A DNA stretch of 64,000 bases, taken from contig NZ_LVJR01000017.1 of NCBI RefSeq assembly GCF_001617365.1, positions 1-64,000 of the forward strand. Reading direction: 5' to 3'. A model generated the notes under the pieces. That model was not told the origin of the DNA. It made no database searches and worked only from the letters and a program-made list of their open reading frames with translations. The position numbers and the translations under genes were made by a program. Origin of the DNA: Rhodanobacter sp. FW104-R8 (GTDB lineage: Bacteria; Pseudomonadota; Gammaproteobacteria; Xanthomonadales; Rhodanobacteraceae). Below, one piece after another: positions 36,169 to 64,000 of this stretch (the stretch's first letter is position 1; each line of letters starts with the position of its first letter).

Positions 36169-36173
36169 CCATT

Positions 36174-36251: not shown

Positions 36252-36260
36252 AAAAGTGGC

Positions 36261-37262
36261 TCACTCCGGCGCGTCGACCTGGTAGCCCTCGGCCTGCAGC
36301 GCGGCCAGGTAGCCATCCGGCTTCAGCAGCTCGTCCATCGGCAACAAGGCGAAGGTCTGCGCGTTGCCGGCCAGCGCCTTGCGCGCGGCGGCCAGCCATG
36401 TCGCGCGCTGCTTCGCCGGCACGTCGTCGAGGCCGAGCGTCTGCGCGAAGCCGGCGCCGGCGACCGCCGCCACGCAGGCATCGTGGCGATCGCTGTCGGG
36501 CAACTCGCGCAGCGCCTGCAGGTCGCCGGTGGCCCAGGCGTTGGCGCGCGCGGTCATCGCCGGCATGTCGTGCTCGACGCTGTCCAGGGTGCGGATGAAG
36601 CAGGTGGTGTCGCGCGGCGCGGCCTGCTTGAACGCCTTGATCGCCGCGCGCGGGTGCTCGATCAGCACGTGGTAGTCGGTCGGCAGTTCCGGCACGCCGC
36701 TGCGTTTGGCCAGCTCGTCCACGCTCGCCTCGACCCCGCCGGAGCGGCTCAGCCCGTTCGCCTTCAGCGCCTTCTTGTACAGCTCCTGCGCGGCGAACAG
36801 TGGCCGCCAGCGCTCGACGCCGCGGTCGTCGCCCAGGTACTTCAGCTTCAGCACCTGCCAGCGTGCATACACCGGCGGCGGCAGCACCTGCTGCAGGGTC
36901 GCGCCGTCATCGTTCTTGCGCGCACTGTAGGCCGAAGGCAGCAGGAACAGCTTGCCGAGGAAGCCGACGTCGGCCTTCAGCTGCACCGAGGGCTCCCGCA
37001 GCACCTGCTGCGAGGCGCCGAGCACCTGCTCCACCTCGCGCGATTGCCACTGCATGGCGCGCGGCAGCGGCGACAGCGTGCCGAGCACCCACATCACGTG
37101 CCCGTCCTTCGATACCTTCCACAGGCCGGGCCCGGGCTGCACGCCGCTCACCACCACCACGGGCAGGTTGGCCACCTCGGGAGGCGGCGCGGCGGCCGAT
37201 TGCGCAAACGCCGGCGGCATGCCGCCCAGCGCGAACAGGAAAGCCACGTGCAACAGACGCAT
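36261..37262 (-). CDS. TraB/GumN-family exported protein
   Basis: This 333-aa protein has a signal peptide (residues 1-20, ending AFA). The TraB/GumN pattern follows: [27 protein letters not shown] near residue 46, and the C-terminal [32 protein letters not shown]-like end in which the usual G(x)LH(x)L segment is replaced by LLPMDELL. The family is related to Tiki-type proteases and its role in bacteria is mostly unknown. GumN is the accessory xanthan-cluster member in Xanthomonas, but no gum genes are near here. The altered metal motif may mean it is not catalytic. Confidence 0.8.
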
Positions 37263-37344
37263 CGGATCGCTCCATGCCAAACGCCGGGCATTGTGGCAGG
37301 CCGATCCTGAGCCGCAGATGGCCGGCGACATGCACATCGGCATC

Positions 37345-37386
37345 GCACACGAGACGGGGCGCCTTGCGACGCCCCGTCTCGTGTGC
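37345..37386 (-). terminator. Terminator hairpin downstream of icd
   Basis: GCACACGAGACGGGGCG (37345-37361) and CGCCCCGTCTCGTGTGC (37370-37386) form a perfect 17-bp stem with an 8-base loop, starting 19 bp past the icd stop. No U-run follows on either strand, but the stem is very stable and well placed to end icd transcription. Confidence 0.8.
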
Positions 37387-37404
37387 GGCCATTGCCTCAG
37401 CGCG

Positions 37405-39681
<2,277 letters not shown>

Positions 39682-39773
39682 TCATTGTCGCGCGAATACC
39701 GACATGGGGCCACCGACCAAGCGGTCCGCATGCCAGAATCGGTGTTTGCCGGACGCACCCGGATCATCGGCAC

Positions 39774-42700
39774 ATGCACGACGAATTCGCCCACCTGCTG
39801 CAACGCGCCGAGTGGCGCTCCAGCTTCGACGAACGCACGCTGGAACGCGCCCGCGCCTATGCCCGTGACGGCAGCGTGTCGAATCTGCACAGTCGCATCG
39901 AGGGCGACGCCCATGTGCTCACTGCGCAGATCGACGGCAGCCGCGGCGAGCGGTACGACTGCCGGGTGGACGTGAACGATCACGGCAAATGGCTCACCGT
40001 GGACACCGACTGCAGCTGCCCGGTGGGCGTCGACTGCAAACATGCCGCCGCCATGCTGATGGTGGCGGCCGGCGAGGGCACAGGGACGGCGAAGCCCACC
40101 GAACCGGCCTGGTTGAGCACACCGCGCGCCGGCACGGAAACGGCGGGCGCCAACGAGGGTTTGACGTCGTGGGAGCACTGGTTGCAGACGCTGCGGCCAC
40201 CTGCCGGCAACCACGAAGCCGAACCGGAACGCCGCTTCGGCGTGATCTTGCGCGGAGACGGCATGTCGCCGATCGCGGGCCTGCTGGCCTACCCCGCCTG
40301 GCTGCGCCCGTCGAAGCAGCCGACCCGCAGCGGACTGGTCGACCCGCAACCGCTGCAGCTGGATAGCCGCCACGGCGCCGTTCCCACGCCGGCCGGCGGC
40401 TGGCCGGCCGCGGCGGCAGCCGCCCTGGTCACCCTGGTACAGCGCCAGTACGTGCCCGTCGGCAACCAGCGCTGGGCGCCGATCCGCGCCGCCCACGAGG
40501 AGCAGGCGCTGGAATATCTGCTGGCGCACTTCCCGGTCTGGTTTGAACGCGGATCCACACCGCTGCAGCGCGCCGAACCGCAACCGCTGCAGCTGTACTG
40601 GCAGGAATCCACCGACGGCAGCCAGCAACTGCGCGCGTGCGTGGCGGCCAGCGACGGCGTGCTGCTGCGCGGTGCCGGCCTGTGGCACGTGCAACCCGCG
40701 CAGGGTCGCTACAGCCGCGTGGATGGCGACCCGCATCTGCTGGACTGCCTGTCACACGCGCCCGTGCTGCAGCCTGCGCAGGTCGCCGCACTGCGCCAGC
40801 GGCTGCAGCGCGGCGACCTGCCCCGGACGCTGCCCAGCCCGATCGACCGCGGTCCGGCCCAGGTCGTGCGCGTGCCTCCGCAGCCAGTGCTGAACCTGCG
40901 CGCCGTCACGCTGAAAACCTGGTCCGGAAAATCACACGACATCGGCTTCGCGCGCCTGGACTTCGACTATGCGGGCCTCCGCCTGCCGCCGACCGACGGC
41001 AGGCGTGCGGTCGAACGGCGGCTGCACGACGGCCACCTGCAGGAGATCCATCGCGACCTGGCCGCCGAGCAACAGGCGGCCGGGCAACTGGAAAAGTTTG
41101 GCGCGTTGCGCCCCGGCCAGGCGCTGTACGAGTACCACCTGCACGGCCACGATGTCGCCGCCAACGACCGCGCGCTGCGTCCCCATCCGCGCAAGCCCCC
41201 GTTGGCGCCGCACGACTGGCGCGACACCATCGACCAGCTCGCCGCCGCCGGTTTTCGCATCGAGTACGAGCCCGGCTTCCCGCACGACGAACTGGTCGAC
41301 ATCGACGCCTGGCACGCCGACATCCAGACCAGCAGCAACGCCTGGTTCGACGTCTCGCTCGGCATCGACATCGGCGGCCAGCGCGTCGACCTGCTGCCGA
41401 TATTGCGCCGCGTGCTGGCCGACCCGGCCTTTCCCCGCGTCGCCCCCGCACGCGAAAGCAAGGGCGCCGTCTGGCGCGTGATGGTGGACGAGAAACGCAG
41501 CGTCGAGATGCCGCTGGCGCGCCTGCGCGCGCTGATCGAGCCGCTGCTGGAATGGCTCGAAGGGGGCGAGGCGCTGCGCCTGCACCGCAGCCAGGCGCAC
41601 CGCCTGCAGGCGCTGGCCGACGATGCTCAACTCAGCTGGCGCGGCGGCGAGGCGCTGCGCGTGCAATTGGATCTGCTCGATGGCGCCACGCGCAGCGCGA
41701 AGGCACCGAAAGGCTTCAAGGCCACCCTGCGCCCCTACCAGCGCGACGGCCTGGCCTGGCTGGATTTCCTCGGCGCAGCGGGCCTGGGCGGCATCCTCGC
41801 CGACGACATGGGGCTGGGCAAGACCGTGCAAGTGCTGGCGCACATCCTCGGCGAAAAGCAGCGCGGCCGACTGGCCGAGCCGGCGCTGGTGATCTGCCCC
41901 ACCTCGCTGGTCGGCAACTGGCAGGCCGAGTCCGCGCGCTTCGCGCCTGCGCTGAACGTACTGGTGATCCACGGCGCCGACCGCGCCGATCGCTACGACG
42001 ACATCGCCGCGCACGACCTGGTCATCACCACCTATCCGCTGCTGCCGCGCGACCGCGACAAACTGGTGGAAACACGTTTCGCCCTGCTGGTGCTGGACGA
42101 GGCACAGGCGATCAAGAACGCCGCCAGCCAGGCCGCCCAGGTGGTACGCGAGATCCCTGCCACGCGGCGGCTGGCGATGACCGGCACCCCGCTGGAAAAC
42201 CACCTCGGCGAACTGTGGGCGCAGTTCGACGCGGTGGAACCGGGCCTGCTCGGCAGTCAGCGCCAGTTCGCCCGGCTGTACCGCACGCCGATCGAGAAGC
42301 GTCGCGACAACGAACGCCAGCAACGTCTTAACCGCCGCATCGGCCCGCTGCTGCTGCGCCGGCGCAAGGACGACGTGCTCACCGAGCTGCCACCCAAGAG
42401 CGAGATCGTGCGCACGCTGGAACTCGAAGGTGACCAGCGCGCGCTGTACGAAACCCTGCGCCTGGCCCAGCACCAGCGCGTGCAGCAGGTGGTGAAGGAA
42501 CGCGGCCTGGCGCAGGCCGGCATCATCGTGCTCGACGCGCTGCTGAAACTGCGCCAGGCCTGCTGCGACCCGCGCCTGGTCAAGCTGCCCAGCGCGAAGA
42601 AGGTCGGGGCCAGCGCCAAGCTCGACGCCCTGCTCGAACTGCTCGACGGCCTGCTCGACGACGGCCGCCGCGTGCTGCTGTTCTCGCAGTTCACCGAGAT

Positions 42701-43130
42701 GCTCGCGCTGATCGAAGCAGCACTCGCCAAACGCGGCATCGCCCACCAGACCCTCACCGGGCAGACCCCGGCGCGCGAACGCACCGCCCTGGTCAAGCGC
42801 TTCCAGCAAGGCAACGTGCCGCTGTTCCTGATCAGCCTGAAAGCCGGCGGCGTCGGCCTGAACCTCACCGCCGCCGACACCGTGATCCACTACGACCCGT
42901 GGTGGAACCCCGCGGTGGAAGCCCAGGCCACCGACCGCGCTCACCGCATCGGCCAGGACAAGCCGGTGTTCGTCTACAAGCTGATCGCCAGCGGCACAGT
43001 GGAAGAAAAGATCCAGGCTATGCAGGGCCGCAAGGCCGAGCTGGCGCACGCCGTGCTCGAAGGCGGCGGCGCCAGCACCAAGTTGCGCTTTGACGAGGAT
43101 GACCTGCGCGAGCTGTTCGCACCGCTTTAG
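39774..43130 (+). CDS. SWIM zinc-finger SNF2/HepA-type helicase
   Basis: This 1118-aa protein starts with a SWIM zinc finger (CSCPVGVDCKH, about residues 82-92). A long central region follows, and then a C-terminal SNF2 ATPase: LADDMGLGKTVQVLAH (Walker A), LVLDEAQAIKN (DEAQ box), MTGTPLENHLGELW, LLFSQFTEML, ISLKAGGVGLNLTAADTVIHYDPWWNPAVEAQATDRAHRIGQ. Such proteins remodel nucleic acid-protein complexes, as RapA does for RNA polymerase; this one's role is unknown. It lies 486 bp before cas3 on the same strand but has host-like GC, so I treat it as the chromosomal flank of the CRISPR locus. Confidence 0.9.
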   Translation: MHDEFAHLLQRAEWRSSFDERTLERARAYARDGSVSNLHSRIEGDAHVLTAQIDGSRGERYDCRVDVNDHGKWLTVDTDCSCPVGVDCKHAAAMLMVAAGEGTGTAKPTEPAWLSTPRAGTETAGANEGLTSWEHWLQTLRPPAGNHEAEPERRFGVILRGDGMSPIAGLLAYPAWLRPSKQPTRSGLVDPQPLQLDSRHGAVPTPAGGWPAAAAAALVTLVQRQYVPVGNQRWAPIRAAHEEQALEYLLAHFPVWFERGSTPLQRAEPQPLQLYWQESTDGSQQLRACVAASDGVLLRGAGLWHVQPAQGRYSRVDGDPHLLDCLSHAPVLQPAQVAALRQRLQRGDLPRTLPSPIDRGPAQVVRVPPQPVLNLRAVTLKTWSGKSHDIGFARLDFDYAGLRLPPTDGRRAVERRLHDGHLQEIHRDLAAEQQAAGQLEKFGALRPGQALYEYHLHGHDVAANDRALRPHPRKPPLAPHDWRDTIDQLAAAGFRIEYEPGFPHDELVDIDAWHADIQTSSNAWFDVSLGIDIGGQRVDLLPILRRVLADPAFPRVAPARESKGAVWRVMVDEKRSVEMPLARLRALIEPLLEWLEGGEALRLHRSQAHRLQALADDAQLSWRGGEALRVQLDLLDGATRSAKAPKGFKATLRPYQRDGLAWLDFLGAAGLGGILADDMGLGKTVQVLAHILGEKQRGRLAEPALVICPTSLVGNWQAESARFAPALNVLVIHGADRADRYDDIAAHDLVITTYPLLPRDRDKLVETRFALLVLDEAQAIKNAASQAAQVVREIPATRRLAMTGTPLENHLGELWAQFDAVEPGLLGSQRQFARLYRTPIEKRRDNERQQRLNRRIGPLLLRRRKDDVLTELPPKSEIVRTLELEGDQRALYETLRLAQHQRVQQVVKERGLAQAGIIVLDALLKLRQACCDPRLVKLPSAKKVGASAKLDALLELLDGLLDDGRRVLLFSQFTEMLALIEAALAKRGIAHQTLTGQTPARERTALVKRFQQGNVPLFLISLKAGGVGLNLTAADTVIHYDPWWNPAVEAQATDRAHRIGQDKPVFVYKLIASGTVEEKIQAMQGRKAELAHAVLEGGGASTKLRFDEDDLRELFAPL

Positions 43131-43615
43131 CTGCCACACCTGCGCCCCACATCGCACAACACCAGGGACAGCGCGCTCCCACCTGTGTGTTGACCAAGAC
43201 GCGCTGAAAACGAAGTCTCCAGACCGGAGGATGCGTGTAGTGATGCCGGCTGCGTCGCAGGATATGCGACTGCCGCATGCGACAAGCATTTGCCATGTCC
43301 GCAAACGCGGGCGTAGGCTCCGACACCAGGGGGACATGCATGGATACGCATATCCGGTCACCATTTCGCACCGACAGGTGCGAAACGGTCGCTGCACTAC
43401 GGCGATACACCGCTCAATCCACCCGGCAAGTGTCGGGAGCACTCTCCTGCTCCCGTTTATCTCGCTCCACCATCAGCCGCCACGCGCACCCCGCCCGTGG
43501 CGACCGCCGTCATGCCTCGGGAAATCGATATGGAATTTGATGCTTTCTTTTGCCGGGCGTCCGGCCAATCTGGGGATACGCCAAGCTTCTGACAAGAAGG
43601 AAAGATTCGATACCC
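43131..43615. other. 485-bp spacer upstream of cas3 with hairpins
   Basis: No convincing gene is present. It contains a GTCGCA-N5-TGCGAC dyad (43254-43270) with TGCGAC repeated at 43278. It also has a perfect TTTCGCACC-gaca-GGTGCGAAA stem (43364-43385). A 26-codon frame (43512-43592) lies just before cas3 without a ribosome site. AT content rises toward cas3, so the promoter of the interference operon is probably near 43520-43600. Confidence 0.5.
43364..43385. promoter_or_regulatory. Perfect 9-bp hairpin upstream of cas3
   Basis: TTTCGCACC and GGTGCGAAA pair perfectly around GACA, about 230 bp before the cas3 start and about 235 bp after the helicase stop. No T-run follows. It could be an operator, a processed leader structure or part of a small RNA. 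Confidence 0.4.
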
Positions 43616-46458
43616 ATGAACGACATGCCTGCAACCAAGAGGGATGCGACGGTGTTCGCCCAGCAATTCGAAACGCTGACAGGATTCAAGCCAATGCGGT
43701 GGCAACAGCGCCTGTATGACGAACACTTCGTCAAGGGTTCATTGCCTTCGGCGGTCAGCTTGCCCACCGGCCTAGGCAAGACGGCGGTCATGGCGATCTG
43801 GATGATTGCGCTGGCGCAGCAGATGAAGTCAGGTCGAGTCAGCTTGCCCCGCCGCCTGGTCTATGTTGTGGACCGGCGCACCGTGGTTGATCAGGCGACG
43901 AAGTTCGCCGAAGACTTGCGAGCGAATCTGGGCAAACCTGAAGCCAGCGAGCTTGCTGCTGCCTTAGGCCTGGGCGAAGGCGAACTCTTGCCCATCTCCA
44001 CCCTGCGCGGTCAGTTCGTGGACAACCGCGACTGGTTGGAAGACCCCTCGCGCCTGGCCATCGTCGTCGGCACGGTGGACATGATCGGTTCGCGCCAGTT
44101 GTTCGAGGGCTACGGCGTTAGCCGCAAGATGCGGCCATACCACGCCGGACTGCTGGGTGCGGACACGCTGGTGCTGCTGGACGAAGCGCACCTGGTGCCG
44201 CCCTTCGAGGCGCTGCTGGCCGAGATAACCGAGAACACCAAGCGATATGGTCCGAGGGATGAAGGGCTCGGCCGACTGATTCCGAAATTTCAACTATTGC
44301 CGTTGTCGGCCACCGGGCGCAGACAGACGCTGCAGCCATTTACGCTGGAAGAAAAGGATTTCCACGATCCCGACGATGCCACCGTGCTGGAACGTCTATT
44401 CGCGAAAAAGCGCCTGACCCTGCTCGAGCGGGGTGGCAGAAACCTTGAAGACGCCTTGGCCTGGCAAGCCTGGGCCCTGGCGCGAGAGACTCATGGGCAG
44501 AACGATGACGAGAACACCAAGACAACCTTCAAGCCCGTACGCGTCATCGTCTATTGCAATTCTCGCGACGTGGCAGAGAAGGTCGAGGCCGCACTGAACA
44601 ATAAAGCCAAGAAAACCCCTGTTGATGGAAGGACGGAGCTTTTCGTTGGCGCGCGCCGGGTGAGGGAACGTATCAACGCAGAACAGAGATTGAGAGACCT
44701 AGGCTTCCTTGCGGGCATGGGCGAGCAAACCGCGCCCGCCTTTCTGGTGGCCACCTCGGCGGGCGAAGTCGGGATCGACCTGGATGCCGACCACATGGTC
44801 TGCGACCTCGTGGCGTGGGAGCGCATGGTGCAGCGTTTTGGACGCGTGAATCGGCGCGGCGGCGAAGGGCGGCGGGCGGACATCGTGGTGCTCCTTGAAT
44901 CGGAGCCAAAACCCAAAAAGGCGGCGCAAGATGCGCTAAATAAACCAGAGGGGCTGCGTAACGACAAAGAACATAGGGCCATTGAGGACTATCAAAAGTC
45001 AGTCGAGACGGCCCAGATGGAGCAAAAGAAGTTGCAAGCACCTTTCGGAGAGGCTTTGCAGAAGCACCTAGACGACAGCTTCGACGTCAGCCCCGAATCC
45101 CTGCGCCAACTGAACGAACAAGCCGGCAAGGACGAAAAACTGGCCCAACTCATCGCCGATGCCAGCTCCCCCATGCCGCTGCGCCCAGCGCTCAATCGCG
45201 CGCTAGTGGATGCCTGGAGTATGACTTCTTTGCCCGAGCACACCGGGCGCCCCGAAGTTGTGCCTTGGCTACGTGGCTGGGTGGATGAGTTGCCACAAAC
45301 CTCGGTGGTTTGGCGCAAATACCTGCCTGTGCGCACAAAGCCGCAGGTGGCGGAGAAGGAAATCGAGGACTTCTTCGAGGCTGCGCCCATCCACACCAGC
45401 GAGAAGCTGGAGACGGAGACGTTCCGCATCATGGGGTGGTTGCAGACGCGAGCAGATACGCACATGCCGGACGACATCATCGGGATATTGCTTGGGACAG
45501 ATGGGGAGGCTGTTCAGGTACTGAAGCGAAAGGATGTCCCGTTGTCCAAGGGCGCGTCGGACTACGACAAGAAAAGGTTCCAGTCGCTCTTGTCCGGCAA
45601 AACGCTGGTGATGTCTGCCAGCTTCGGTGGGCTCAACGGTGGCTTGCTCAGTAATGGCGCAGATGAGGTGCCTCCCACTGCCGATGGTGATGAGCCTTGG
45701 ATGGGTGCAGACGCAGCCACGCCCGTCATCCACTTTCGCATCATCGAACGCGCCGCGGAACCTGACAAAGACAGCGACGACGTCTGGCGCGAAAGTCTGC
45801 GTTTCGACCGGAAGCGCAACGACGACGGCGAGGCCACGCTCTGGCTCTCCATCCAGAAATGGCGCAACGCCTCCAACACCGAGAACGACCGCGCCGAAGG
45901 GCGACCACAGGCGCTGGCCGAACACCAGTGTTGGGCGGCGAAGTGCGCAGAAGCGATCGGCAAGCGACTGCGTTTGCCGGATGACTACATCGCCATGCTG
46001 GTGACCGCCGCGCGACTGCATGACGAAGGCAAGCGCGCCAAACGCTGGCAACGAGCATTCAACGCGGAACGTGACAAGAAGAAATGCGGCATATCTGACG
46101 ACTTGGCAAAAACGCGCGGCCCCATCAATCAGGCCGTGCTGGGCGGCTACCGGCATGAATTCGGTTCGCTGCCGCGTGCGCTGGACGACGTCGAGTTCAA
46201 GAAGCTCCCGAACGAATTGCAGGACCTCGCCCTGCACCTGATCGCCGCGCACCACGGCTACGCACGGCCCTTGATCGCCACCGCCGGTTGCGAGGATGCG
46301 CCCCCCTCCGCACTGGAAGAACGCGCCCGCGAAGTGGCCTTGCGCTTTGCCCGCCTGCAAAAGCGCTGGGGGCCGTGGGGCCTGGCGTGGTGGGAGGCAC
46401 TGCTGCGCGCCGCCGATGCGCAGGCCTCGCGTGACAACGACAAGAGAGAGAAGAACTG

Positions 46459-46459
<1 letters not shown>
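43616..46459 (+). CDS. cas3: Type I-G CRISPR nuclease-helicase Cas3 (C-terminal HD)
   Basis: This 947-aa protein unwinds and degrades target DNA after recruitment by Cascade. The helicase is N-terminal: Walker A LPTGLGKTAVM (about 48-58), DEAH box LLDEAHLVPP (Asp about 188), SAT-like PLSAT, and motif VI QRFGRVNRRG (about 405). The HD nuclease is C-terminal: LHDEGK (His802-Asp803), GGYRHEFGS (about 843) and AAHHGYARP (about 878). This helicase-first order is the type I-U/I-G Cas3 layout, opposite to most type I Cas3. ATG 43616 is chosen over an upstream frame; its ribosome site is weak. The stop overlaps the cas8 start as TGATG. GC looks lower than in the flanking helicase. Confidence 0.93.
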
Positions 46460-48531
<2,072 letters not shown>

Positions 48532-48532
<1 letters not shown>

Positions 48533-50703
48533 TGACCCGCGCCCTCCTCATCTCCGTCCGCTTCCACGACAACCGCTACCATGGCACGGGCGACTGGCCG
48601 CCATCGCCGGCGCGCCTGTTCCAGGCGCTGGTGGCGGCAGCGACGTTACCGGGGCTGGATACCGACAAGCGCAATGCGCTCAAGTGGCTGGAAAAGCTTG
48701 GCGCACCAACTATCGCTGCGCCTGCAGCGCACAGCGGGCAGAACGTCAATCTGTTCGTGCCGAACAACGATCTGGATGCCAAGGGTGGCGACGTTCGGCG
48801 CATCGCGGAAATCCGCAGCGCGACCAAGCATATCCGCCCGCGCCTGTTTGACGCCACCGTGCCGCTGCTCTACATCTGGCACTTTGACGGCGACGAAAGC
48901 CAGGCCAAGTGCATCTGCAACATTGCCAACGACCTCTATCAACTTGGCCGTGGCGTGGATATGGCTTGGGCAATTGGTGAACTGGTCGATGAAGCAAGGG
49001 TCGAAGAGCAGCTGGGCGACTATCCCAGCGTCATCTACCGCCCATCCGAGAGCGGCAAGGGCCTGGCGTTGGATTGCCCTGACGACGGTTCGCTCGATAG
49101 CCTCGAAATTCGGCACAAAGCGAACGCTCAACGCTTCACGCACGTCAACAGCAAAACCCAGTTTACGAATGCACCCAGACCGCGTTTTCGTACCGTTTCC
49201 TACAACAGCCCGGCAGCGCGCCTGCTGTTCGAATTGCGGTGCACCACCGCGCCCGGCGCACCCTTTGCGCCTTGGCCGTTGAAAAGCGCGGCGGCACTGG
49301 TTCGGACGTTGCGTGACGGCGCATGCGCGCGGCTTGAAAAGCACTTCAATGGCAGCGGTGTGGTGGAGAAGGTGCTGATCGGCCGCAACGCCACCGAAGC
49401 CGACAAGACACAGCGCATCCGTATCATCCCGCTACCGTCCATCGGCCATGTCCATGCCGACCCTGACATTCGCCGCGTGCTGGTGGAGGTGCCGCCGGAT
49501 TGCCCGATACGCGCGGACGATGTTGCCTGGGGCTTTGCGGGCCTGGAAGTCATTTCGCCCGTGCTCAACGAAGAAACCGGCGAAATCCTCTCCTCACCGG
49601 TCGAACTGGTGAAGGCGGATGGCGACTCCATGCTGGCGCATTACGGCGTGACGGAAGAACGTACTTCTCGCCTGTGGCGCAGCGTGACGCCGCTGGCTTT
49701 GCCGGAGGATGCAAAGCGGCGGCGTATCAATCCCGCCAAATTGCGCGAGGAAGCCAAGGGCGGCAAAGAGCGTGCCGATGAACAGCAGTGTGCCTGCTAT
49801 GCCGTCATACAGGCGCTGTACCATGCCGGCCGGCGTGAAAAGGTGGCCGGTCTTCGCGTGCAGCGCGAACCCTTCTATGCCAAGGGCGAACGCGCCGAAG
49901 CCTTTGCGACCGGTACGCGCTTTTCAAAGCACCAGCTTTGGCACGTAGAAATCGAATTTGCCGAAGCCGTCAGCGGGCCGCTGCTGCTGGGAAACGGGCG
50001 TTACAGTGGTCTGGGCTTGATGGCTCCGGTTCAACAAGTAGAAGGCGTACTGGCATTCAGCATCGTGGATGGCCTGGCCGCCGACGCCGAACCTTTGCAA
50101 CTGGCTCGCGCTCTGCGCCGGGCCGTGATGACGCGAGTGCAGAACGAAATGGGTGCACGGGAAAAGCTTCCCGTTTTTTTCACCGGTCACGAAGCCGATG
50201 GCTCCACAGCGCGGCGTGGCGGGCACGCGCATCTGGCTTTCGTGCCCGACTTGGCGCGCCAGCGCCTGCTGGTGATTGCCCCGCACGTGATTGAACACCG
50301 GAAACCATTCAAGGATGAATGCGACCATCTGAAAACGCTGGCGCGTGCACTGGCCGGTTTGAGTGAATTGCGCGCGGGGCGTGCCGGCAAGCTCGGACTG
50401 AAACGGGTGGAAGTCAACCCAGATACCGACCCGCTGTTCGCCCCATCCAAAGCATGGGCAGTAGCCACACCCTACGCGCCCACACGCCACGCCAAGCGAA
50501 ATGGCCGCGATTCCCTGCAAAACGATGTGTTGCGAGAAGTGCAGCGCCGTCAGTTGCCTGTGCCGCTGGCGGTAGAGGAGAAAGGCGCGAATTTGTTGTT
50601 GAGATTCAGCGTGGCCGTGCCAGGTCCCGTGATGCTGGGCAAGACGATGCATTTCGGTGGCGGCTTATTCACTTGCTGCGTTAAGGAACGTGATCATACG
50701 TGA
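48532..50703 (+). CDS. csb2: Type I-G Cas5-Cas6 fusion (Csb2, GSU0054-like)
   Basis: This 723-aa protein fuses a Cas5-like N-terminal half (LLISVRFHDNRYHGTGDWPPSPARLFQALVAA, residues 4-35) to a Cas6-like C-terminal half. The latter has GGHAHLAFVPDLARQRLLVIAPHV near 560 and the glycine-rich end PGPVMLGKTMHFGGGLF. In type I-G the fusion both caps the crRNA 5' handle and cuts pre-crRNA in the repeat, so no separate cas6 is needed and none is seen. It is the last gene of the interference operon. Its start overlaps the cas7 stop. The C-terminal GP..LG....H.G.GLF pattern reappears in broken form just downstream (50761-50857). Confidence 0.9.
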
Positions 50704-50760
50704 CATTACCTCCTACCGTTTCCGCAACCAGTGCGGCCTCGATCAGCTCGACCGGCTGTC

Positions 50761-50857
50761 GGGTTCTGGCGCCTGATCTTCACCGAACCCGCACAAGGTC
50801 CATTTGCGCTCGGCTTCCCACCACTACGCACTGGACCTACTCGGACCGGCGCGCTGA
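50761..50857 (+). pseudogene. Frameshifted remnant resembling the C-terminus of a second csb2
   Basis: Read from 50761, one frame gives GFWRLIFTEPAQGPFALG. The neighbouring frame then gives ASHHYALDLLGPAR and a stop at 50855-50857. This lines up with the end of the intact csb2 (LLRFSVAVPGPVMLGKTMHFGGGLF): the L.F, GP, LG and His positions match at the same spacing. No start codon or upstream domain remains. It lies 58 bp after the intact csb2 stop and about 60 bp before hipB. I infer a scar of an older Cas5-Cas6 gene; the match is short and needs a profile comparison. Confidence 0.55.
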
Positions 50858-50881
50858 ATAGTAAAAATAGAATATAAACTT

Positions 50882-50902
50882 GTCATTTACTCGACTAATG
50901 AC
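50882..50902. promoter_or_regulatory. Probable HipB operator overlapping the hipBA promoter
   Basis: GTCATT and AATGAC flank 9 bases in a perfect dyad, 14 bp before the hipB start. It is embedded in a sharply AT-rich stretch (50859-50915) that contains TAGAATATAA-like promoter sequence. XRE antitoxins usually repress their own operon by binding such a site. Confidence 0.6.
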
Positions 50903-50915
50903 TATTTTATTTTCC

Positions 50916-51233
50916 ATGCCAAAGCGCACCCCACCCATCTTCCCGGCCACCTCCCGCCAGCTCGCCCTGCTGGGCGAGCGCTTGCGCGCGGCGCGCTTGC
51001 GGCGGCGGATGACGCAGGCGGCGTTGGCGACGCGGGCGGACGTGTCGCTGCCGACTCTGCGCAAGCTGGAACAGGGCGAGCCGTCGAGCAGCCTGGCGAC
51101 GTTGCTGCGCACGCTGCAGGTGCTGGGGCTGGATCAGGACATCGAGCTGCTGGCGAAGGACGACGAGGTCGGCCGACGGCTGCAGGACATCCACCAGGTC
51201 GGCGCACCGCGCGGCAGGTCGCGCACGTCGTGA
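50916..51233 (+). CDS. hipB: HipB-like XRE antitoxin
   Basis: This 105-aa DNA-binding protein has an XRE helix-turn-helix at about residues 20-75 (LGERLRAARLRRRMTQAALATRADVSLPTLRKLEQGEPSSSLATLLRTLQVLG). A short tail RLQDIHQVGAPRGRSRTS follows. It resembles HipB antitoxins, which bind and silence HipA and repress the operon. ATG 50916 is preferred over an upstream ATG at 50880 because it lies after the AT-rich promoter and dyad. The stop overlaps the hipA GTG start as GTGA, the usual coupling for antitoxin-toxin pairs. It interrupts the CRISPR locus between csb2 and cas4-cas1. Confidence 0.85.
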   Translation: MPKRTPPIFPATSRQLALLGERLRAARLRRRMTQAALATRADVSLPTLRKLEQGEPSSSLATLLRTLQVLGLDQDIELLAKDDEVGRRLQDIHQVGAPRGRSRTS

Positions 51234-52486
51234 GACGCGAGCATCTGGATGTGGTGCTGGACGACGCCACGCTGGGGCCGCCGGTGATGGTCGGCAGCCT
51301 GCAGCGCGAACGTGGCGCTTCGTCCGAGGTGATCAGCTTCGTCTACGATGCGGATTACCTGGCGCAACGCCACAGCGTGGCGATCGACCCGGAGCTGCCC
51401 TTGTTGCCGGGCCGCAGTTACCCCGCGCGCGGGCGACCGCTGTTCGGCATCTTTCGCGACACCGCGCCAGATCGCTGGGGCCGCATGCTGATGGAGCGGC
51501 GCGAGGTAATCGAGGCGCAGGAAGCGGGGCGGCGCACGCATCGCTTGTCGGAGTGGGATTTTCTCACCGGCGTCGGCGACCTCGCCCGCATGGGCGCGCT
51601 GCGCCTGCGCGACGGCGCGCCGCCGCACGCCTATGTGGACGACCGCGAGCGCAGCGCGCCGCCGGCCGCGCGGCTGCGCGAACTCGAGGCCGTTGCGCGC
51701 GCGCTGAGCCGCGACGATGCCGAGGATCGCCCCGAATACGCGCAATGGCTGGCGCAGCTGATCGCACCGGGCAGCAGCCTGGGCGGCGCGCGGCCGAAGG
51801 CCTCGTTCAGCGCCGAAGACAGCATGCTGTGGCTGGCCAAGTTTCCCGCCCACGACGACCGGCGCGACGTGGGTGCATGGGAATACCTGGCCTGGCGCCT
51901 CGCGCGCGACGCAGGCATCGTGGTGCCCGAGGCCCGCTTGCTGCGCTTCGGCCGCGGCCATCGCACTTTCGCGGTGCAACGGTTCGACCGCGCGAACGGC
52001 TCGCGCCGGTTGTACGCCTCGGCGATGACCCTGCTGATGCGCAACGACGGCGACGCCGGCAGCTACCTGGATCTGGCCCAGGCGATCCAGCTGCACGGCG
52101 ACCCGGCCAGCATCGCCGCGGATCTGGCCCAGCTCTATCGACGCGCCGTATTCGCCATCCTGGTCGGCAACCGCGACGACCATCTGCGCAACCACGGCTT
52201 TCTGCGCAACGCGCACGGCTGGCAATTGGCACCTGCGTTCGACGTCAACCCGAACCCCGACAAACGCGAACACACGCTGGCCATCGACGCGGCCAACCCC
52301 ACACCGTCGGTGCGGCATCTGCACGCCACGCACCACTACTACCGCCTGGACGCGCACGAGGCCACGGCCATCGAGCAGGGCGTGCGTGACGCGGTCAGCC
52401 ACTGGCGCGCACTGGCGAACGAATTGAAGCTGGGGCGCGTGGCGCAGGGCCAACTCGGCATGGTTATCGACGAAACCCGCGACTGA
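51230..52486 (+). CDS. hipA: HipA-like Ser/Thr kinase toxin
   Basis: This 418-aa protein has the HipA layout. The N-terminal subdomain includes FVYDADYL and LPLLPGRSYPARGRPLFGIFRDTAPDRWGRMLM, and a Gly-rich nucleotide loop SSLGGARPKASF lies at about 183-194. The kinase core has FAVQRFDR, the catalytic loop VGNRDDHLRNHGFL (about 310-323), and FDVNPNP in place of the DFG-like metal site. HipA toxins phosphorylate aminoacyl-tRNA synthetases in studied cases and stop growth; the target here is unknown. GTG 51230 overlaps the hipB stop. It ends 102 bp before cas4-cas1 on the same strand, so adaptation genes may be cotranscribed with it. GC is high, like cas4-cas1. Confidence 0.88.
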   Translation: MRREHLDVVLDDATLGPPVMVGSLQRERGASSEVISFVYDADYLAQRHSVAIDPELPLLPGRSYPARGRPLFGIFRDTAPDRWGRMLMERREVIEAQEAGRRTHRLSEWDFLTGVGDLARMGALRLRDGAPPHAYVDDRERSAPPAARLRELEAVARALSRDDAEDRPEYAQWLAQLIAPGSSLGGARPKASFSAEDSMLWLAKFPAHDDRRDVGAWEYLAWRLARDAGIVVPEARLLRFGRGHRTFAVQRFDRANGSRRLYASAMTLLMRNDGDAGSYLDLAQAIQLHGDPASIAADLAQLYRRAVFAILVGNRDDHLRNHGFLRNAHGWQLAPAFDVNPNPDKREHTLAIDAANPTPSVRHLHATHHYYRLDAHEATAIEQGVRDAVSHWRALANELKLGRVAQGQLGMVIDETRD

Positions 52487-52588: not shown

Positions 52589-54307
<1,719 letters not shown>

Positions 54308-54332: not shown

Positions 54333-54623
54333 ATGGACGAGCATCTTTACCTGGTGACCTACGACATTCGCGACGACAAGCGCCTGCGCCGCGTATTCAA
54401 GACCATGAAGGGTTTCGGCGAATGGCTGCAACTTTCCGTATTCCAGTGCCGACTGAGCCGCCGACGACACGCCGAGATGCTGCAACTTCTCGACGGCATC
54501 ATCCTGCGCCGCACCGATGCCCTGCTGATCATCGATCTCGGCCCCGCCGACAAGGTCAAACCCCGTGTCGTCAGTCTCGGTGACAAATTCGAACCAGTGG
54601 CCCGCGAGCCGATCATCGTGTGA
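54333..54623 (+). CDS. cas2: Cas2, CRISPR integration complex subunit
   Basis: This 96-aa protein has the Cas2 ferredoxin-like fold: YLVTYDIRDDKRLRRVFKTMKGFGEWLQLSVFQCRLS, with the conserved Asp11 on strand 1, and DALLIIDLGPADK near the end. Cas2 dimers bridge two Cas1 dimers during spacer integration. Length is normal. It lies between cas4-cas1 and the array leader, with all three in the same direction, so newly acquired spacers would enter about 230 bp downstream. Confidence 0.94.
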   Translation: MDEHLYLVTYDIRDDKRLRRVFKTMKGFGEWLQLSVFQCRLSRRRHAEMLQLLDGIILRRTDALLIIDLGPADKVKPRVVSLGDKFEPVAREPIIV

Positions 54624-54851: not shown

Positions 54852-57800
54852 GTGATCCGCAGCGATTCGCTGCGGCCTCATTGAAGCCCGAACGCGCTGG
54901 CTGAAGTTGCTCGGGTGAGCAAGGCTGTGATCCGCAGCGATTCGCTGCGGCCTCATTGAAGCCGTCGGCAGAATCGCCGGCCAGCCATCTGCTACGCGCG
55001 TGATCCGCAGCGATTCGCTGCGGCCTCATTGAAGCAGCACGTCATACGTTTTAGCACCAAGGAACTCCTGCCGTGATCCGCAGCGATTCGCTGCGGCCTC
55101 ATTGAAGCGGAAAGTGGTCGACACGACAGCAGACAACGCCATCGGCGGTGATCCGCAGCGATTCGCTGCGGCCTCATTGAAGCATCAGCCCGCGCTTGGG
55201 GGTCTTGGCAGGCGGAGGGGAGTGATCCGCAGCGATTCGCTGCGGCCTCATTGAAGCACTGGCGGCTTCGGTCGCCCTTTCTTTTGCCCTGCCGGTGATC
55301 CGCAGCGATTCGCTGCGGCCTCATTGAAGCCGCGCCATGCCGAGGCGGCACGCGCGCGCTGGCCGCGTGATCCGCAGCGATTCGCTGCGGCCTCATTGAA
55401 GCGTTGTCGCCCTGGTACTTGCCCGCCAGCCACTGGTTGGTGATCCGCAGCGATTCGCTGCGGCCTCATTGAAGCCTGCCGTGCGCGGTCCTCGGCCTCA
55501 CGGCGTTGACGTGATCCGCAGCGATTCGCTGCGGCCTCATTGAAGCGACTGTCTGCTTTTCTTGCTGGGCGTGAACCGTGCGTGATCCGCAGCGATTCGC
55601 TGCGGCCTCATTGAAGCCGAGTACGGTTTGGTGGCCACCGTCCAGACGTCGCGTGATCCGCAGCGATTCGCTGCGGCCTCATTGAAGCGGCTGGCAATCG
55701 GCAACGGCTTCTCGTGGGCCTTCGGTGATCCGCAGCGATTCGCTGCGGCCTCATTGAAGCCATGTTCCACACCTCTCTGTTGTAAATCACTTTAAGTGAT
55801 CCGCAGCGATTCGCTGCGGCCTCATTGAAGCATTGTTGGGCTTTACCGTAATACCTTCACGGGTGTGTGATCCGCAGCGATTCGCTGCGGCCTCATTGAA
55901 GCAGCGATCCAGAAACGCGTCCTGCCCGCATTGTACGGTGATCCGCAGCGATTCGCTGCGGCCTCATTGAAGCAGCGTGTCGGGATCGACCTTCGCCATC
56001 AGCTCATCGGTGATCCGCAGCGATTCGCTGCGGCCTCATTGAAGCTTTCCTGGTGTATTTGGCGTACCCACTATACCTGTGTGATCCGCAGCGATTCGCT
56101 GCGGCCTCATTGAAGCCATCCGATCTATACTCACCCAGGCGATACGTTCTCGGTGATCCGCAGCGATTCGCTGCGGCCTCATTGAAGCTATAATTTTGCT
56201 GGGTTTCCTAACCCATCTTTGCCGGTGATCCGCAGCGATTCGCTGCGGCCTCATTGAAGCTGCAAATCGGTAAAGACGATCTGTGACAGAATATTGGGTG
56301 ATCCGCAGCGATTCGCTGCGGCCTCATTGAAGCCTCGTGATCTGTCAATTCTTCCCGGATATTTTCAAGTGATCCGCAGCGATTCGCTGCGGCCTCATTG
56401 AAGCTAGGTGTGCGCGCCTAGACTTCCCGCTATCTATTGCGTGATCCGCAGCGATTCGCTGCGGCCTCATTGAAGCAGTTTCGCGGCCGCGGCCTTCTCC
56501 GCCGCATACGGGCGTGATCCGCAGCGATTCGCTGCGGCCTCATTGAAGCTCGCATATGGCGGATGCTATCCAGTACCTCGCACTCTGTGATCCGCAGCGA
56601 TTCGCTGCGGCCTCATTGAAGCAATTAAACCGTAGGCGTCGGTAGGAGCGTTAGAAACGTGATCCGCAGCGATTCGCTGCGGCCTCATTGAAGCGTAGGT
56701 GTACCAGTGGCACTCAAGCGAAACGCGAGGTGATCCGCAGCGATTCGCTGCGGCCTCATTGAAGCCCGTCGATGTCGACTGGAGCCGCCAGATGCTCCTG
56801 AGTGATCCGCAGCGATTCGCTGCGGCCTCATTGAAGCAAGCTGCCCTGAAATAGCGCCCAGCACAATGCCCAGTGATCCGCAGCGATTCGCTGCGGCCTC
56901 ATTGAAGCGCTTCACCTTGTCGCGCAGAATGCATGTTTCCTTCGGTGATCCGCAGCGATTCGCTGCGGCCTCATTGAAGCACGCTCAGCACCATTCACGC
57001 GCTCGACCGTGACCGTCGTGATCCGCAGCGATTCGCTGCGGCCTCATTGAAGCGACGAGAACGAGGAGCGCACGGGCGGCACCACCTCGTGATCCGCAGC
57101 GATTCGCTGCGGCCTCATTGAAGCGACTGGGTGGTTTGCGGCATCGTGGTCATCGTTGGCGGTGATCCGCAGCGATTCGCTGCGGCCTCATTGAAGCTGC
57201 GTGCCGGTAAGCGACAGCAGCGGGTCGAACGATGTGATCCGCAGCGATTCGCTGCGGCCTCATTGAAGCAGCGCTCGCTGATATGCCTGCTCGTAGCCCA
57301 CACCCGGTGATCCGCAGCGATTCGCTGCGGCCTCATTGAAGCGTGGGGTGGCGCTGCAGCACGTCGCGGCAGTATCGGTGATCCGCAGCGATTCGCTGCG
57401 GCCTCATTGAAGCAAGACCGGCCAGAACGCACCCAGCGGCGAGCAGCTGGTGATCCGCAGCGATTCGCTGCGGCCTCATTGAAGCGGAGTTTTTTTCCAG
57501 TTCCTCGATGTCCTTTCCGGTGTGATCCGCAGCGATTCGCTGCGGCCTCATTGAAGCAAATACAGGTAGTAGGTGACCGTCGTTCCAGCCGTGGTGATCC
57601 GCAGCGATTCGCTGCGGCCTCATTGAAGCAATCCCGTCGGCACGTGGTCTGGCGCCCGGCCCCTGGTGATCCGCAGCGATTCGCTGCGGCCTCATTGAAG
57701 CCCGGCATCGGCATCGCGCTGCCCGCGATCGCGGCAGGTGATCCGCAGCGATTCGCTGCGGCCTCATTGAAGCGCGTACCGCATACGTTAGATTGACAGC

Positions 57801-60800
57801 CGCAATTTTGTGATCCGCAGCGATTCGCTGCGGCCTCATTGAAGCGAACGCCTGGGTGGCCTGAATCTCCTTTTCGTGCATGTGATCCGCAGCGATTCGC
57901 TGCGGCCTCATTGAAGCGCCGTATCCCGTACCACCACATACTGCGAGAGGTCGGTGATCCGCAGCGATTCGCTGCGGCCTCATTGAAGCTTGCTGGCGAC
58001 AACGATTCGCGTTGACCTGCGCGGTCGTGATCCGCAGCGATTCGCTGCGGCCTCATTGAAGCATCTTGTCGCCCTGTTCCTCCGACTTCTTCGCGTACGT
58101 GATCCGCAGCGATTCGCTGCGGCCTCATTGAAGCGTTTTCGATTCGTTGGCGCCCCGCTCTGCTGGCTGTGGTGATCCGCAGCGATTCGCTGCGGCCTCA
58201 TTGAAGCATCCCGGCTGCAATCACACGACGGCGAATTGCAACGCGTGATCCGCAGCGATTCGCTGCGGCCTCATTGAAGCCTGTACGTGTCGGGGGTCAT
58301 GGTGTTACCTCAGAGGCGTGATCCGCAGCGATTCGCTGCGGCCTCATTGAAGCCGTGCGGCCACGTTCTTCTCCAGCGCCTTGCCCATGGGTGATCCGCA
58401 GCGATTCGCTGCGGCCTCATTGAAGCCAAGTTTGCCGAGCGACGCCGCACATCACAGCGTCGTGATCCGCAGCGATTCGCTGCGGCCTCATTGAAGCGGC
58501 GACGGCACCATCGCGTAGGCGATGATCATCGACACGTGATCCGCAGCGATTCGCTGCGGCCTCATTGAAGCGGATAATTGAGGGGGAAAATATCAGTGGG
58601 GGTTAGGCGTGATCCGCAGCGATTCGCTGCGGCCTCATTGAAGCTGTGCATCTCGCGCTCGGCGCCGTTACCAAAACGCCGTGATCCGCAGCGATTCGCT
58701 GCGGCCTCATTGAAGCAATGTGAATGGTAGCGGCAGTAGTTATTTTCAAATGTGATCCGCAGCGATTCGCTGCGGCCTCATTGAAGCAGCGGCACCAATG
58801 AGTTTTTCTTGCCATGACGGTGTAAGTGATCCGCAGCGATTCGCTGCGGCCTCATTGAAGCAGGCATTCAATGACGCGGTCAATGATGTTCATGGCCGTG
58901 ATCCGCAGCGATTCGCTGCGGCCTCATTGAAGCAGTTATTCCGATGGCGCGGCGGTCAGTCATACGCCGTGATCCGCAGCGATTCGCTGCGGCCTCATTG
59001 AAGCCTGTCGGTGGCGTGCGCCGCCTCGCGGCTGGTACCCGTGATCCGCAGCGATTCGCTGCGGCCTCATTGAAGCCAGACGTGTCGGTTGCGTAACCGA
59101 AGAAGACGCCGCGGTGATCCGCAGCGATTCGCTGCGGCCTCATTGAAGCTAGGTTACCGCGGCGCTTGCCGGCGTCAGCGTCAGCGGTGATCCGCAGCGA
59201 TTCGCTGCGGCCTCATTGAAGCTGCTCGCCCTCTCGGTTCTTTCGCAGCAACAACTCGTGATCCGCAGCGATTCGCTGCGGCCTCATTGAAGCGACTGGT
59301 CCGATCTTGAGCATCGCGGCAATGTCGCCGTGATCCGCAGCGATTCGCTGCGGCCTCATTGAAGCTAAGCTTTTCCTGCCGAAGCTCCTGGAGGGCTTGA
59401 TGTGATCCGCAGCGATTCGCTGCGGCCTCATTGAAGCAAGGGCGCTTACGTCGGCAACAACGTGATGAACAAGGTGATCCGCAGCGATTCGCTGCGGCCT
59501 CATTGAAGCCTAGTCTATATTACCGCGCGTGGTCAGCTTGGCAAGTGATCCGCAGCGATTCGCTGCGGCCTCATTGAAGCTGACGCCAACGCCCCCAGCA
59601 AACCCCGCGTACATCGTGATCCGCAGCGATTCGCTGCGGCCTCATTGAAGCCCCGTTCCATTGCGTCCGACGATCACAAGCCGTTGCGTGATCCGCAGCG
59701 ATTCGCTGCGGCCTCATTGAAGCTCCAGTCGCGCAGCGTCGCAAGTCTTCTGCTATCTCGTGATCCGCAGCGATTCGCTGCGGCCTCATTGAAGCAGCAG
59801 GTCGCGGTCGTCCATCGACTTAGCCACGCGGTGATCCGCAGCGATTCGCTGCGGCCTCATTGAAGCGTGAGGAACTGGGCTTGATCCCGTGCACGATGAT
59901 CTGTGATCCGCAGCGATTCGCTGCGGCCTCATTGAAGCCGTCGATCATGGGAATGTCCTCGGGTTAGCCGGGTAGTGATCCGCAGCGATTCGCTGCGGCC
60001 TCATTGAAGCGATGACGCCAGCAAGGCCATCAAGGTTGCAGGTCTGTGATCCGCAGCGATTCGCTGCGGCCTCATTGAAGCAAGTACGCCAACGCCGCGC
60101 CGTACTTCAGTGAGGGCGGTGATCCGCAGCGATTCGCTGCGGCCTCATTGAAGCGCCGGACAAGACACGCAGCACGATCGAGGTCGGTGCGGTGATCCGC
60201 AGCGATTCGCTGCGGCCTCATTGAAGCCGAACATCGCCAAGCAGGTGACGGCGTGAGCATGGGGTGATCCGCAGCGATTCGCTGCGGCCTCATTGAAGCC
60301 GATCCGCGTTTATCTCGGCGAGCAGCCACACGACGTGATCCGCAGCGATTCGCTGCGGCCTCATTGAAGCACTCGCAGCGTCGCCAAGGGCCGCAGGGTC
60401 AGCGTGTGATCCGCAGCGATTCGCTGCGGCCTCATTGAAGCCACTTGTCGGCCCACTCGGCGTTCGCGCCTTGCAGCGTGATCCGCAGCGATTCGCTGCG
60501 GCCTCATTGAAGCGCTGGTGGCGAAAGAGGGGGCTTGACGTCAAGGGGGGTGATCCGCAGCGATTCGCTGCGGCCTCATTGAAGCGGGATCGCCTCGTAG
60601 CGCTTGGCCTTGGCCACCGGGTGTGATCCGCAGCGATTCGCTGCGGCCTCATTGAAGCGCGGCCCATTGCGCCCGGCGCTCGTCATTGCTGCGCGGTGAT
60701 CCGCAGCGATTCGCTGCGGCCTCATTGAAGCCACCCTGCCCCATCCGGTGCCCCACTCTGTCACGTCGTGATCCGCAGCGATTCGCTGCGGCCTCATTGA

Positions 60801-63800
60801 AGCTCGGCACCCGTGGCGCCGACCACACGAGCCCATGCGGTGATCCGCAGCGATTCGCTGCGGCCTCATTGAAGCCGCACCGGCATGGTGGCGGCTGCGC
60901 AGACGGCGACGGTGATCCGCAGCGATTCGCTGCGGCCTCATTGAAGCGTAGTGCTCACGTAGATAGCGCGCCACGCTCATGTGGTGATCCGCAGCGATTC
61001 GCTGCGGCCTCATTGAAGCGCCGACTTGTCGAGCGGATCCCACTCACACATCTCGGTGATCCGCAGCGATTCGCTGCGGCCTCATTGAAGCTGCGATCGC
61101 TCCGACGATGATCGCTCCTGACGTTGCGGTGATCCGCAGCGATTCGCTGCGGCCTCATTGAAGCCTGTACGGCCTGCTCGATCGTGCTGCGGATCAGATG
61201 TGATCCGCAGCGATTCGCTGCGGCCTCATTGAAGCCACAGCAATGCTCCGGGGTTGACGACCGGGCCGGCGGTGATCCGCAGCGATTCGCTGCGGCCTCA
61301 TTGAAGCACCTTCATCGCCATCGCGGCCCTGCTGCTGATCGGCGGTGATCCGCAGCGATTCGCTGCGGCCTCATTGAAGCTGTACCCGCGACAATCGGCG
61401 CGAAGGCCGCGTTTGCGTGATCCGCAGCGATTCGCTGCGGCCTCATTGAAGCAGCAACTACGGCGACGCACACACAACGAAAGCCGGCCGTGATCCGCAG
61501 CGATTCGCTGCGGCCTCATTGAAGCTCAAGCAATCGTTGACAACTGGTGCCAGCACATTCACGTGATCCGCAGCGATTCGCTGCGGCCTCATTGAAGCAC
61601 CTCGCATCGCACCGATGGCGCGGTCCATCACGCCGGTGATCCGCAGCGATTCGCTGCGGCCTCATTGAAGCATGAGGCCATTGTCGAGAGAGTAAACAAT
61701 CCGTTGTTGTGATCCGCAGCGATTCGCTGCGGCCTCATTGAAGCGCCGGCATCGCCACCGGCTACCTGCAGGCCACAACCGTGATCCGCAGCGATTCGCT
61801 GCGGCCTCATTGAAGCTGGTGCTGATTCGCTGTACGCGGCCATCGACTGAGGTGATCCGCAGCGATTCGCTGCGGCCTCATTGAAGCCATGCGGGGCACG
61901 AACGAATTGATGCTGGTCTGCTGGTGATCCGCAGCGATTCGCTGCGGCCTCATTGAAGCCCCGCACCGGGCTGTATGCCTCCGCTGAAACGGCGGGTGAT
62001 CCGCAGCGATTCGCTGCGGCCTCATTGAAGCGCAGACGCTGGCCACCGGAAAATCTACGCTCTGATCGTGATCCGCAGCGATTCGCTGCGGCCTCATTGA
62101 AGCGAGTGGTCGTGAATCTTGGCGTTTTCCGCTGGCGAACGTGATCCGCAGCGATTCGCTGCGGCCTCATTGAAGCCCTGGATCGCGCGATGAACTCACT
62201 TTCCGAGCTTGCGTGATCCGCAGCGATTCGCTGCGGCCTCATTGAAGCGCGGTTGCCTGTGTCGTCGTATCCGCGCCCGTAATGTGATCCGCAGCGATTC
62301 GCTGCGGCCTCATTGAAGCGGCACCATGCTTGCCGCTTGGCATCCGGCCAACGATGTGATCCGCAGCGATTCGCTGCGGCCTCATTGAAGCGCCCGGCCA
62401 CCGACCATTCGTTCACCCATGTGCCATCGTGATCCGCAGCGATTCGCTGCGGCCTCATTGAAGCACTGAGGCCGCTGCGCTTGATGTTTTCGTAGGTGTA
62501 GTGATCCGCAGCGATTCGCTGCGGCCTCATTGAAGCCCGAAGGGTGCGCGCATGTGCGGTCACGGTGGCTTGGTGATCCGCAGCGATTCGCTGCGGCCTC
62601 ATTGAAGCTCGATCTTGCCGGCGGCTTTCGCCGCCGGGTCGACGTGATCCGCAGCGATTCGCTGCGGCCTCATTGAAGCACCGCATAGCCCCACGTGGTG
62701 GTGGTGGTGGAGACGTGATCCGCAGCGATTCGCTGCGGCCTCATTGAAGCAGCTTACCCGTTGCGGCGATCTCTGCGAAGAGGTCGGTGATCCGCAGCGA
62801 TTCGCTGCGGCCTCATTGAAGCGTTGCATTAGTGATAAACCCCAGGGCCAACGGCTCCGGTGATCCGCAGCGATTCGCTGCGGCCTCATTGAAGCATCCT
62901 GCAGCTATTGCATACGGACAATACCATTTCAGTGATCCGCAGCGATTCGCTGCGGCCTCATTGAAGCCCGCTGGCGGTGCGGCAGTCGATGCTGCGCACG
63001 TACGTGATCCGCAGCGATTCGCTGCGGCCTCATTGAAGCTCGGCTGCCTGTAGCAGCTCCGCCGTGGCCCCGGACGTGATCCGCAGCGATTCGCTGCGGC
63101 CTCATTGAAGCTGGTACTCGGTGGATTGCCCGGTGCATGGCGATAAGGGTGATCCGCAGCGATTCGCTGCGGCCTCATTGAAGCTCTCATGGGGTGCGAC
63201 GACGGAAGTAGTTGGAACACGTGATCCGCAGCGATTCGCTGCGGCCTCATTGAAGCCAGTGTTTCCGACGCTTGACAAGACTTGACAACGTGGTGATTCG
63301 CAGCGATTCGCTGCGGCCTCATTGAAGCCTGGCCCTGGTACTGCAGGACATCCTGGTCACGCTCGGTGATCCGCAGCGATTCGCTGCGGCCTCATTGAAG
63401 CGTCGTTGGTCCGTATCCAGACGCCAGCTACCCGGTCGTGATCCGCAGCGATTCGCTGCGGCCTCATTGAAGCCGCGGTGAGTGGCAGCAAAAGATTCAG
63501 ATGGCGGGTGTGATCCGCAGCGATTCGCTGCGGCCTCATTGAAGCTTCAGGTACTTGAACCCGAGAAACGCGCCGCCGATGGTGTGATCCGCAGCGATTC
63601 GCTGCGGCCTCATTGAAGCTTCACGTAGCACTCGCCGGCCATAACCTGTGTTTGGTGATCCGCAGCGATTCGCTGCGGCCTCATTGAAGCCTTGGTATTG
63701 TGGCTGGACTACGGATGCTTCTGGCGTGATCCGCAGCGATTCGCTGCGGCCTCATTGAAGCATACGCGGAATCGTCACGCGGACCATTTCGCCGCTGCGG

Positions 63801-64000
63801 TGATCCGCAGCGATTCGCTGCGGCCTCATTGAAGCATGTATCTCAATGCCTAGACTGTTCCGCTGCAGGACGGTGATCCGCAGCGATTCGCTGCGGCCTC
63901 ATTGAAGCGCGAAGGATGGCGCATGGAGTAGCCACGCCGCCGCCGGTGATCCGCAGCGATTCGCTGCGGCCTCATTGAAGCAGCGAGCGCGCGGCCAGCG
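54852..64000 (+). CRISPR. Type I-G CRISPR array, 127 repeats in view, continues past the window
   Basis: I counted 127 repeats of 36 bp, starting at 54852 and with the last at 63946-63981, plus 126 complete spacers of about 35-39 bp and 19 bases of a further one. The repeat starts GTGATCCGCAG and ends CCTCATTGAAGC, with the perfect stem CCGCAGCG-ATT-CGCTGCGG. The repeats I read are identical except the one at 63293, which has T for C at position 6. The 3' ATTGAAGC end, cas2 to the left and lack of repeat decay set the orientation as leader-left. All open frames in this region are translations of repeat units and not genes. The trailer end lies outside. Confidence 0.99.
63293..63328 (+). repeat. 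Single variant repeat in the array
   Basis: Repeat 118 begins GTGATTCGCAG instead of GTGATCCGCAG. The change removes the outermost C-G pair of the stem. It is the only variant I saw; repeats 119 to 127 behind it are again the consensus. Confidence 0.85.

Follow-up and report, generated by a model that had tools for sequence, protein, structure and literature searches.

In the type I-G CRISPR-Cas system of Thioalkalivibrio sulfidiphilus, Csb2 unites Cas5 and Cas6, with the border between the two domains near residue 260 (R260) (Shangguan et al. 2022, PMC9638904). The isolated C-terminal domain, which carries the catalytic histidine H503 near its C-terminus, folds and cuts crRNA, and no effector is assembled from this Cas6 domain without the Cas5 domain (PMC9638904). 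The exchange of effectors has been described as effector swapping (2025, PMC12669027), with a type II-C cas9 example in which closely related adaptation genes accompany unrelated effector genes at one locus. In Vibrio cholerae, T6SS effector genes are reported to be displaced sequentially, a module replacement after which older pieces persist in a row at the locus (PMC5361080).

The DNA analysed here comprised 64,000 nucleotides of Rhodanobacter sp. FW104-R8 (contig NZ_LVJR01000017.1, positions 1 to 64,000), hereafter the window, whose features are collected in Table 1. Csb2, Cas7g (Csb1), Cas8g and Cas3g of the current interference block all exceeded the curated cut-offs, which assigns the system to type I-G CRISPR-Cas. 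The genes of the block are intact and the array repeats have the I-G form, and together they would provide a predicted effector. This block, with Cas8g2 (TIGR04106) and a 723-aa csb2, was designated L. The designation S was used for type I-G systems with Cas8g1/Csx17 and a Csb2 of ~495 aa, M for blocks also with Cas8g1 and with a 630-aa csb2, and R for a fourth kind of block.

Table 1. Position and assignment of features around the two seams in the window
Feature	Positions	Strand	Remarks
Left-hand seam region	43120..43606		Flank common to G060 and G002 ends at 43119; donor-type (L011) similarity from 43606
cas3g, incoming block (TIGR02621, 612 bits)	43616..46459	+	
cas8g2, incoming block (TIGR04106, 231 bits)	46459..47334	+	
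cas7g (csb1), incoming block (TIGR02570, 138 bits)	47387..48532	+	
Intact long csb2, incoming block (TIGR02165, 313 bits, residues 4-500; further Cas6-like domain ~520-722)	48532..50703	+	
Right-hand seam	50704..50716		Incoming csb2 stop 50701-50703; first base aligned to G067 is 50717
csb2 remnant (S-type, Cas8g1-system; C-terminal ~50 codons, Cas6-domain end)	50705..50857	+	Frameshifts -1 and -2; old stop 50855-50857
hipB-like antitoxin gene, resident	50916..51233	+	Continuous with remnant in G067, G060 and G002
hipA-like toxin gene, resident	51230..52486	+	
cas4-cas1 fusion (cas4-1), kept resident adaptation module	52589..54307	+	
cas2, kept adaptation module	54333..54623	+	98% identical to G067 and G010
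CRISPR array, resident-type 36-bp repeat GTGATCCGCAGCGATTCGCTGCGGCCTCATTGAAGC	54852..64000		Extends beyond the window end; 135 repeats in total

As in the effector swapping of PMC12669027, closely related adaptation genes are found with unrelated effectors at one locus; the window differs in its subtype (I-G), in the exchange taking place between Cas8g1 and Cas8g2 variants, and in a physical remnant of an effector gene that marks the seam. Compared with the Csb2 of T. sulfidiphilus, this remnant comprises only the last ~50 codons and is broken, and the whole Cas6 half found as its own open frame in several relatives is a natural version of the construct of PMC9638904. The T6SS of V. cholerae is a different system in which whole immunity genes are reported to remain (PMC5361080), whereas a gene tail or a domain remains here. 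To these precedents, the present analysis adds a fossil gene piece that physically marks the seam, a series of intermediate states at a single site, and the finding that the Cas6 end of csb2 is involved repeatedly. No earlier description of these was found in the literature searched, which was of limited coverage.

Extent, identity and decay of the csb2 remnant

A preliminary description of this DNA had quoted peptides behind csb2, and these were found in alternating frames behind the intact gene, which ends at 50703. The interval 50704-50915 encodes GFWRLIFTEPAQGPFALG in one frame and ASHHYALDLLGPAR followed by a stop in another, with YRFRNQCGLDQLDRL ahead of both. Homology to csb2 extends from 50717, and probably from 50705, to the old stop codon at 50855-50857, and 50858-50915 constitutes the hipB upstream region. 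Relative to the genus-mate G067, the remnant has undergone one 1-base and one 2-base deletion (frameshifts of -1 near 50760 and -2 near 50817), by which the frame is regained at its end. A full-length Cas5-Cas6 frame is absent, with only ~50 codons and two frameshifts in its place.

The three-frame translation and Csb2 profile search that had been proposed as a check failed with curated models and succeeded with a profile derived from intact relatives. Against the NCBIfam and Pfam models, including TIGR02165/PF09609, the short remnant pieces matched 0 families because they are too short; an intact S relative, unlike these pieces, does match TIGR02165. The S-tail profile, built from the C-terminal ~60 residues encoded by intact S-type csb2 genes, scored 53.5 bits with the joined pieces, compared with 12.5 bits for the best shuffled version; the remnant carries the Cas6 tail motif that distinguishes the C-terminus of the S lineage. 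Profiles of two similar motifs in the neighbouring csb2, including its own C-terminus, scored ~6 bits. This difference excludes chance and places the remnant in another Csb2 lineage, as the preliminary description had proposed from its differences to the neighbour. A partial tandem duplication of the C-terminus of the neighbouring csb2, with no module swap, was considered in view of the GP..LG...H motif that both stretches have in common; it was refuted by the same profile contrast, and the tail also lies beside hipB in G067 and G060, both of which lack a long csb2, so that the likelihood of such a duplication is negligible.

At the DNA level, the remnant alone aligned to G067 over 144 bases (72%, E 2e-16). 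When 60 relatives were searched at the DNA level, nothing beyond the window itself matched except a 24-32-base piece, whose short matches resembled chance, and a protein-level search was therefore needed. A genome-wide search with a wider tail alignment (A1) recovered the remnant site at E 2.2e-4 through one 19-residue piece. These comparisons show that 50705-50857 is the 3' end (~50 codons) of another csb2 gene (Cas5-Cas6), which belongs to the S lineage of type I-G.

The S lineage was characterized with the tail at L012, a locus from a MAG, as query, which retrieved same-family proteins of ~495 aa with C-termini mostly 75-77% identical to the L012 tail. These are full TIGR02165 proteins, found in operons with Cas8g1/Csx17 (TIGR04113), Cas7g and Cas3g. 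In profile comparisons, the S Cas6 half matched residues 520-722 of the long csb2, its additional C-terminal domain (E 1e-19), and the Cas5 of S csb2 matched that of the long csb2. A model of domain 520-722, of moderate confidence, had Cas6-type RAMP proteins as its top PDB matches, with low TM-score. A sequence search of the PDB with both Csb2 types found no relatives; plasmid searches returned none with the tail or with S csb2 and distant relatives only with the long csb2.

Differences between the window and G067 remnants are distributed over codon positions 1, 2 and 3 as 10/13/16, compared with 8/2/32 and 4/2/20 in comparisons of S-type genes. The window remnant thus drifts without coding constraint, evolving like a pseudogene. 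A functional small gene, such as a regulator or an RNA-binding peptide, might be proposed on account of the L012 tail, an uninterrupted 60-aa frame that has an ATG with GGAG upstream, and of the short open tail frames in G060 and G545. However, the two frameshifts and near-uniform codon-position differences of the window tail, along with a G002 copy lacking any usual start codon, make this very improbable.

Alternative modules at one site and their ancestry

G067 DNA aligns without a break to 50717-51398 of the window, which covers the tail, hipB and the start of hipA (78%, E 5e-155), and in G067 a cas3S fragment lies beside the csb2S tail, with cas4-1 nearby. In G060, the left flank of the window (35214-43119, 86%) is followed within ~350 bp by a tail of 60 codons, then hipBA and a cas4-1 that is truncated, with no interference genes between flank and tail. 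The flank likewise ends at 43119 in G002, followed by an M block (630-aa Csb2), a ~50-codon tail, hipBA, cas4-1 and cas2. Window, G060 and G002 thus have in common both the left flank ending at 43119 and hipBA-cas4-1, which makes this one site with alternative modules. G010 has an R block where G067 has the S remnant, and its cas4-1 is 93% identical to that of the window. Closely related adaptation modules of a single genus therefore adjoin blocks of the kinds L, M and R, or the remains of a lost S module. The continuity of tail, hipB and hipA in G067, and of tail, hipBA and cas4-1 in G060, bears out the earlier proposal that an older interference operon had ended before hipBA and cas4-cas1. 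No sampled genome had an intact S operon at exactly this site with hipBA, and the ancestral state was accordingly reconstructed from pieces.

Adaptation and effector genes of the window have conflicting phylogenies, as seen in trees and identities. The cas4-1 gene is 95% identical to that of G067, and in the cas4-1 tree window, G067 and G010 group at 100/99; a single clade of all L-block cas4-1 genes was rejected by the AU test (p-AU 1.7e-5). Identity of the window cas3 reaches 64-74% with L011, L012 and Thauera but only 26-33% with genus-mates and with relatives that carry other blocks, and the cas3-cas8g2-cas7-csb2 block as a whole is related to Thauera and other Gammaproteobacteria. GC and GC3 of the block are 0.56-0.62 and 0.62-0.74, compared with a GC3 of 0.86-0.88 in the SNF2 gene, hipA and cas4-1. 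The array repeat resembles those of G010, G067, G002 and G219, whereas the repeats of L011, L012 and Thauera have other stems. The replacement of the older operon by a foreign cas3-cas8-cas7-csb2 block, put forward in the preliminary description, is supported by the alternative block in G002, the conflicting ancestry and the differing base composition. The breakpoint had been placed within 50704-50760; it falls inside this range and was refined to 50704-50716, with the left edge at 43120-43606.

The remnant is very probably the fossil 3' end of a resident S csb2, left by a foreign type I-G block that replaced the S system. An S system with Cas8g1/Csx17 and the short Csb2 would once have occupied the interval from the SNF2-type helicase gene upstream to hipBA-cas4-1-cas2-array. 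Foreign cas3-cas8g2-cas7-long csb2 would then have replaced it, probably by recombination of imported DNA, entering between ~43.1-43.6 kb and 50.71 kb. On the right, the exchange would have occurred within the old csb2, so that its last ~50 codons were left behind the new csb2 stop, where they would no longer have been translated and would have decayed, acquiring two frameshifts. The resident hipBA, adaptation genes and array, including its type of repeat, would have been retained, and the new effector presumably reads the old array.

A different origin of the seam is raised by L012, where the same long csb2 is joined to an S-type tail with identical spacing over 39 gapless bases (counted by eye), and where cas4-1 is unrelated to that of the window (only 66% identical), yet the exact seam is common to both and to no other locus. 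The tail's left edge may have been imported together with the block, if an L012-like donor carrying long csb2 plus S tail had recombined into the resident csb2S within the common tail, where ~140 bp of homologous sequence (now 57% identical) could have served as a recombination arm. On this reading, the seam would predate the swap and the remnant would be a hybrid. Loci with a long block and an S remnant also occur in G861 and G771. However, the remnant is nearer to resident G067 than to L012, both in its first 12 codons (69%, 25/36, versus 58%, 21/36, a stretch too decayed for firm assignment) and in the rest (73% versus 57%); the overall identities of 72% and 57% favour a resident tail. The L012 tail is still coding-like, with differences concentrated in third positions, and the window tail is fully decayed, which suits separate events. 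Arrival of the edge with the block is therefore considered unlikely, though of some weight, and the resident S csb2 is preferred as the source of the tail.

Several further observations concern the left seam, the array and the block. Window positions 43537-43549 match 13 bases of the G060 junction between left flank and csb2 tail exactly, a match that might have survived from the leader of the old operon or have arisen by chance. Comparison of the window array spacers with all fetched cas loci, in search of spacers expelling the old system, yielded nothing clearly above chance; the spacer at 57414 has a 93% match over a 29-base stretch in the G219 array (L046:16438-16466), possibly reflecting a common target. 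The cas8g and cas7g genes of L blocks (window 46459-48532; L011, L012, L013, L014, L015, L102 and L109) fall into two widely divergent forms. Between two Thauera loci, identity is 95% for cas3 and 98% for csb2, yet 36% for cas8 and 45% for cas7, and G861 pairs a cas8 of one L form with a cas7 of the second.

S remnants and Cas6 halves in related loci

Besides intact S genes, S remnants were found in the window, L012, G002, G060, G067, G545, G596, G771, G303, G751, G861 and G738, and replacement of this kind thus recurs many times among relatives. A search of small orders around G653, G861, G771 and G751 gave no further cases. A single exact start site for all ~50-codon tails was entertained and weakened, as the G002 tail may reach ~12 codons further and an exact common seam links only the window and L012.

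In five of these (G771, G303, G751, G861 and G738), the whole Cas6 half is present as an open frame from the domain border. The pN/pS of the five halves, of which that of G738 lacks 12 residues, is as in intact genes, a value that recent formation would also produce. In G861 (L109:8904-11239), the long csb2 ends after its second domain, with an ATGA overlap with an intact S-type Cas6-half frame, and the truncated csb2 still matches the entire TIGR02165 model. These features suggest that such loci may be working split Cas5/Cas6 systems. Tentatively, and with somewhat more doubt than confidence, the Cas6 half of csb2 may be a natural seam, such that in exchanges of interference modules the resident, array-matched Cas6 domain is often kept as a working gene of its own behind the incoming block; G861, G751, G303 and G771 would then be functional split Cas5/Cas6 type I-G systems, and the window stub would be the last stage of losing such a Cas6.

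In G738 (L104:4980-16476), genes that look type III (Cmr-like) by eye separate a full S csb2 from another S Cas6 half, which adjoins cas4-1. In G560 (L127:7899-17063), an R-type block lies between an N-terminal cas3L fragment and a long csb2 3' half (81% to that of the window), and this flanking by L pieces indicates that an L system was itself replaced there.

Conflicting trees are the usual grounds on which shuffling of CRISPR effectors is inferred. In the window, part of the module that was lost persists as DNA at the seam, and genomes of the same genus present this site with the module deleted or with another block in its place. Because remnants keep appearing at the Cas6 end of csb2, it becomes testable why crRNA processing might be retained while the rest of the effector is exchanged.
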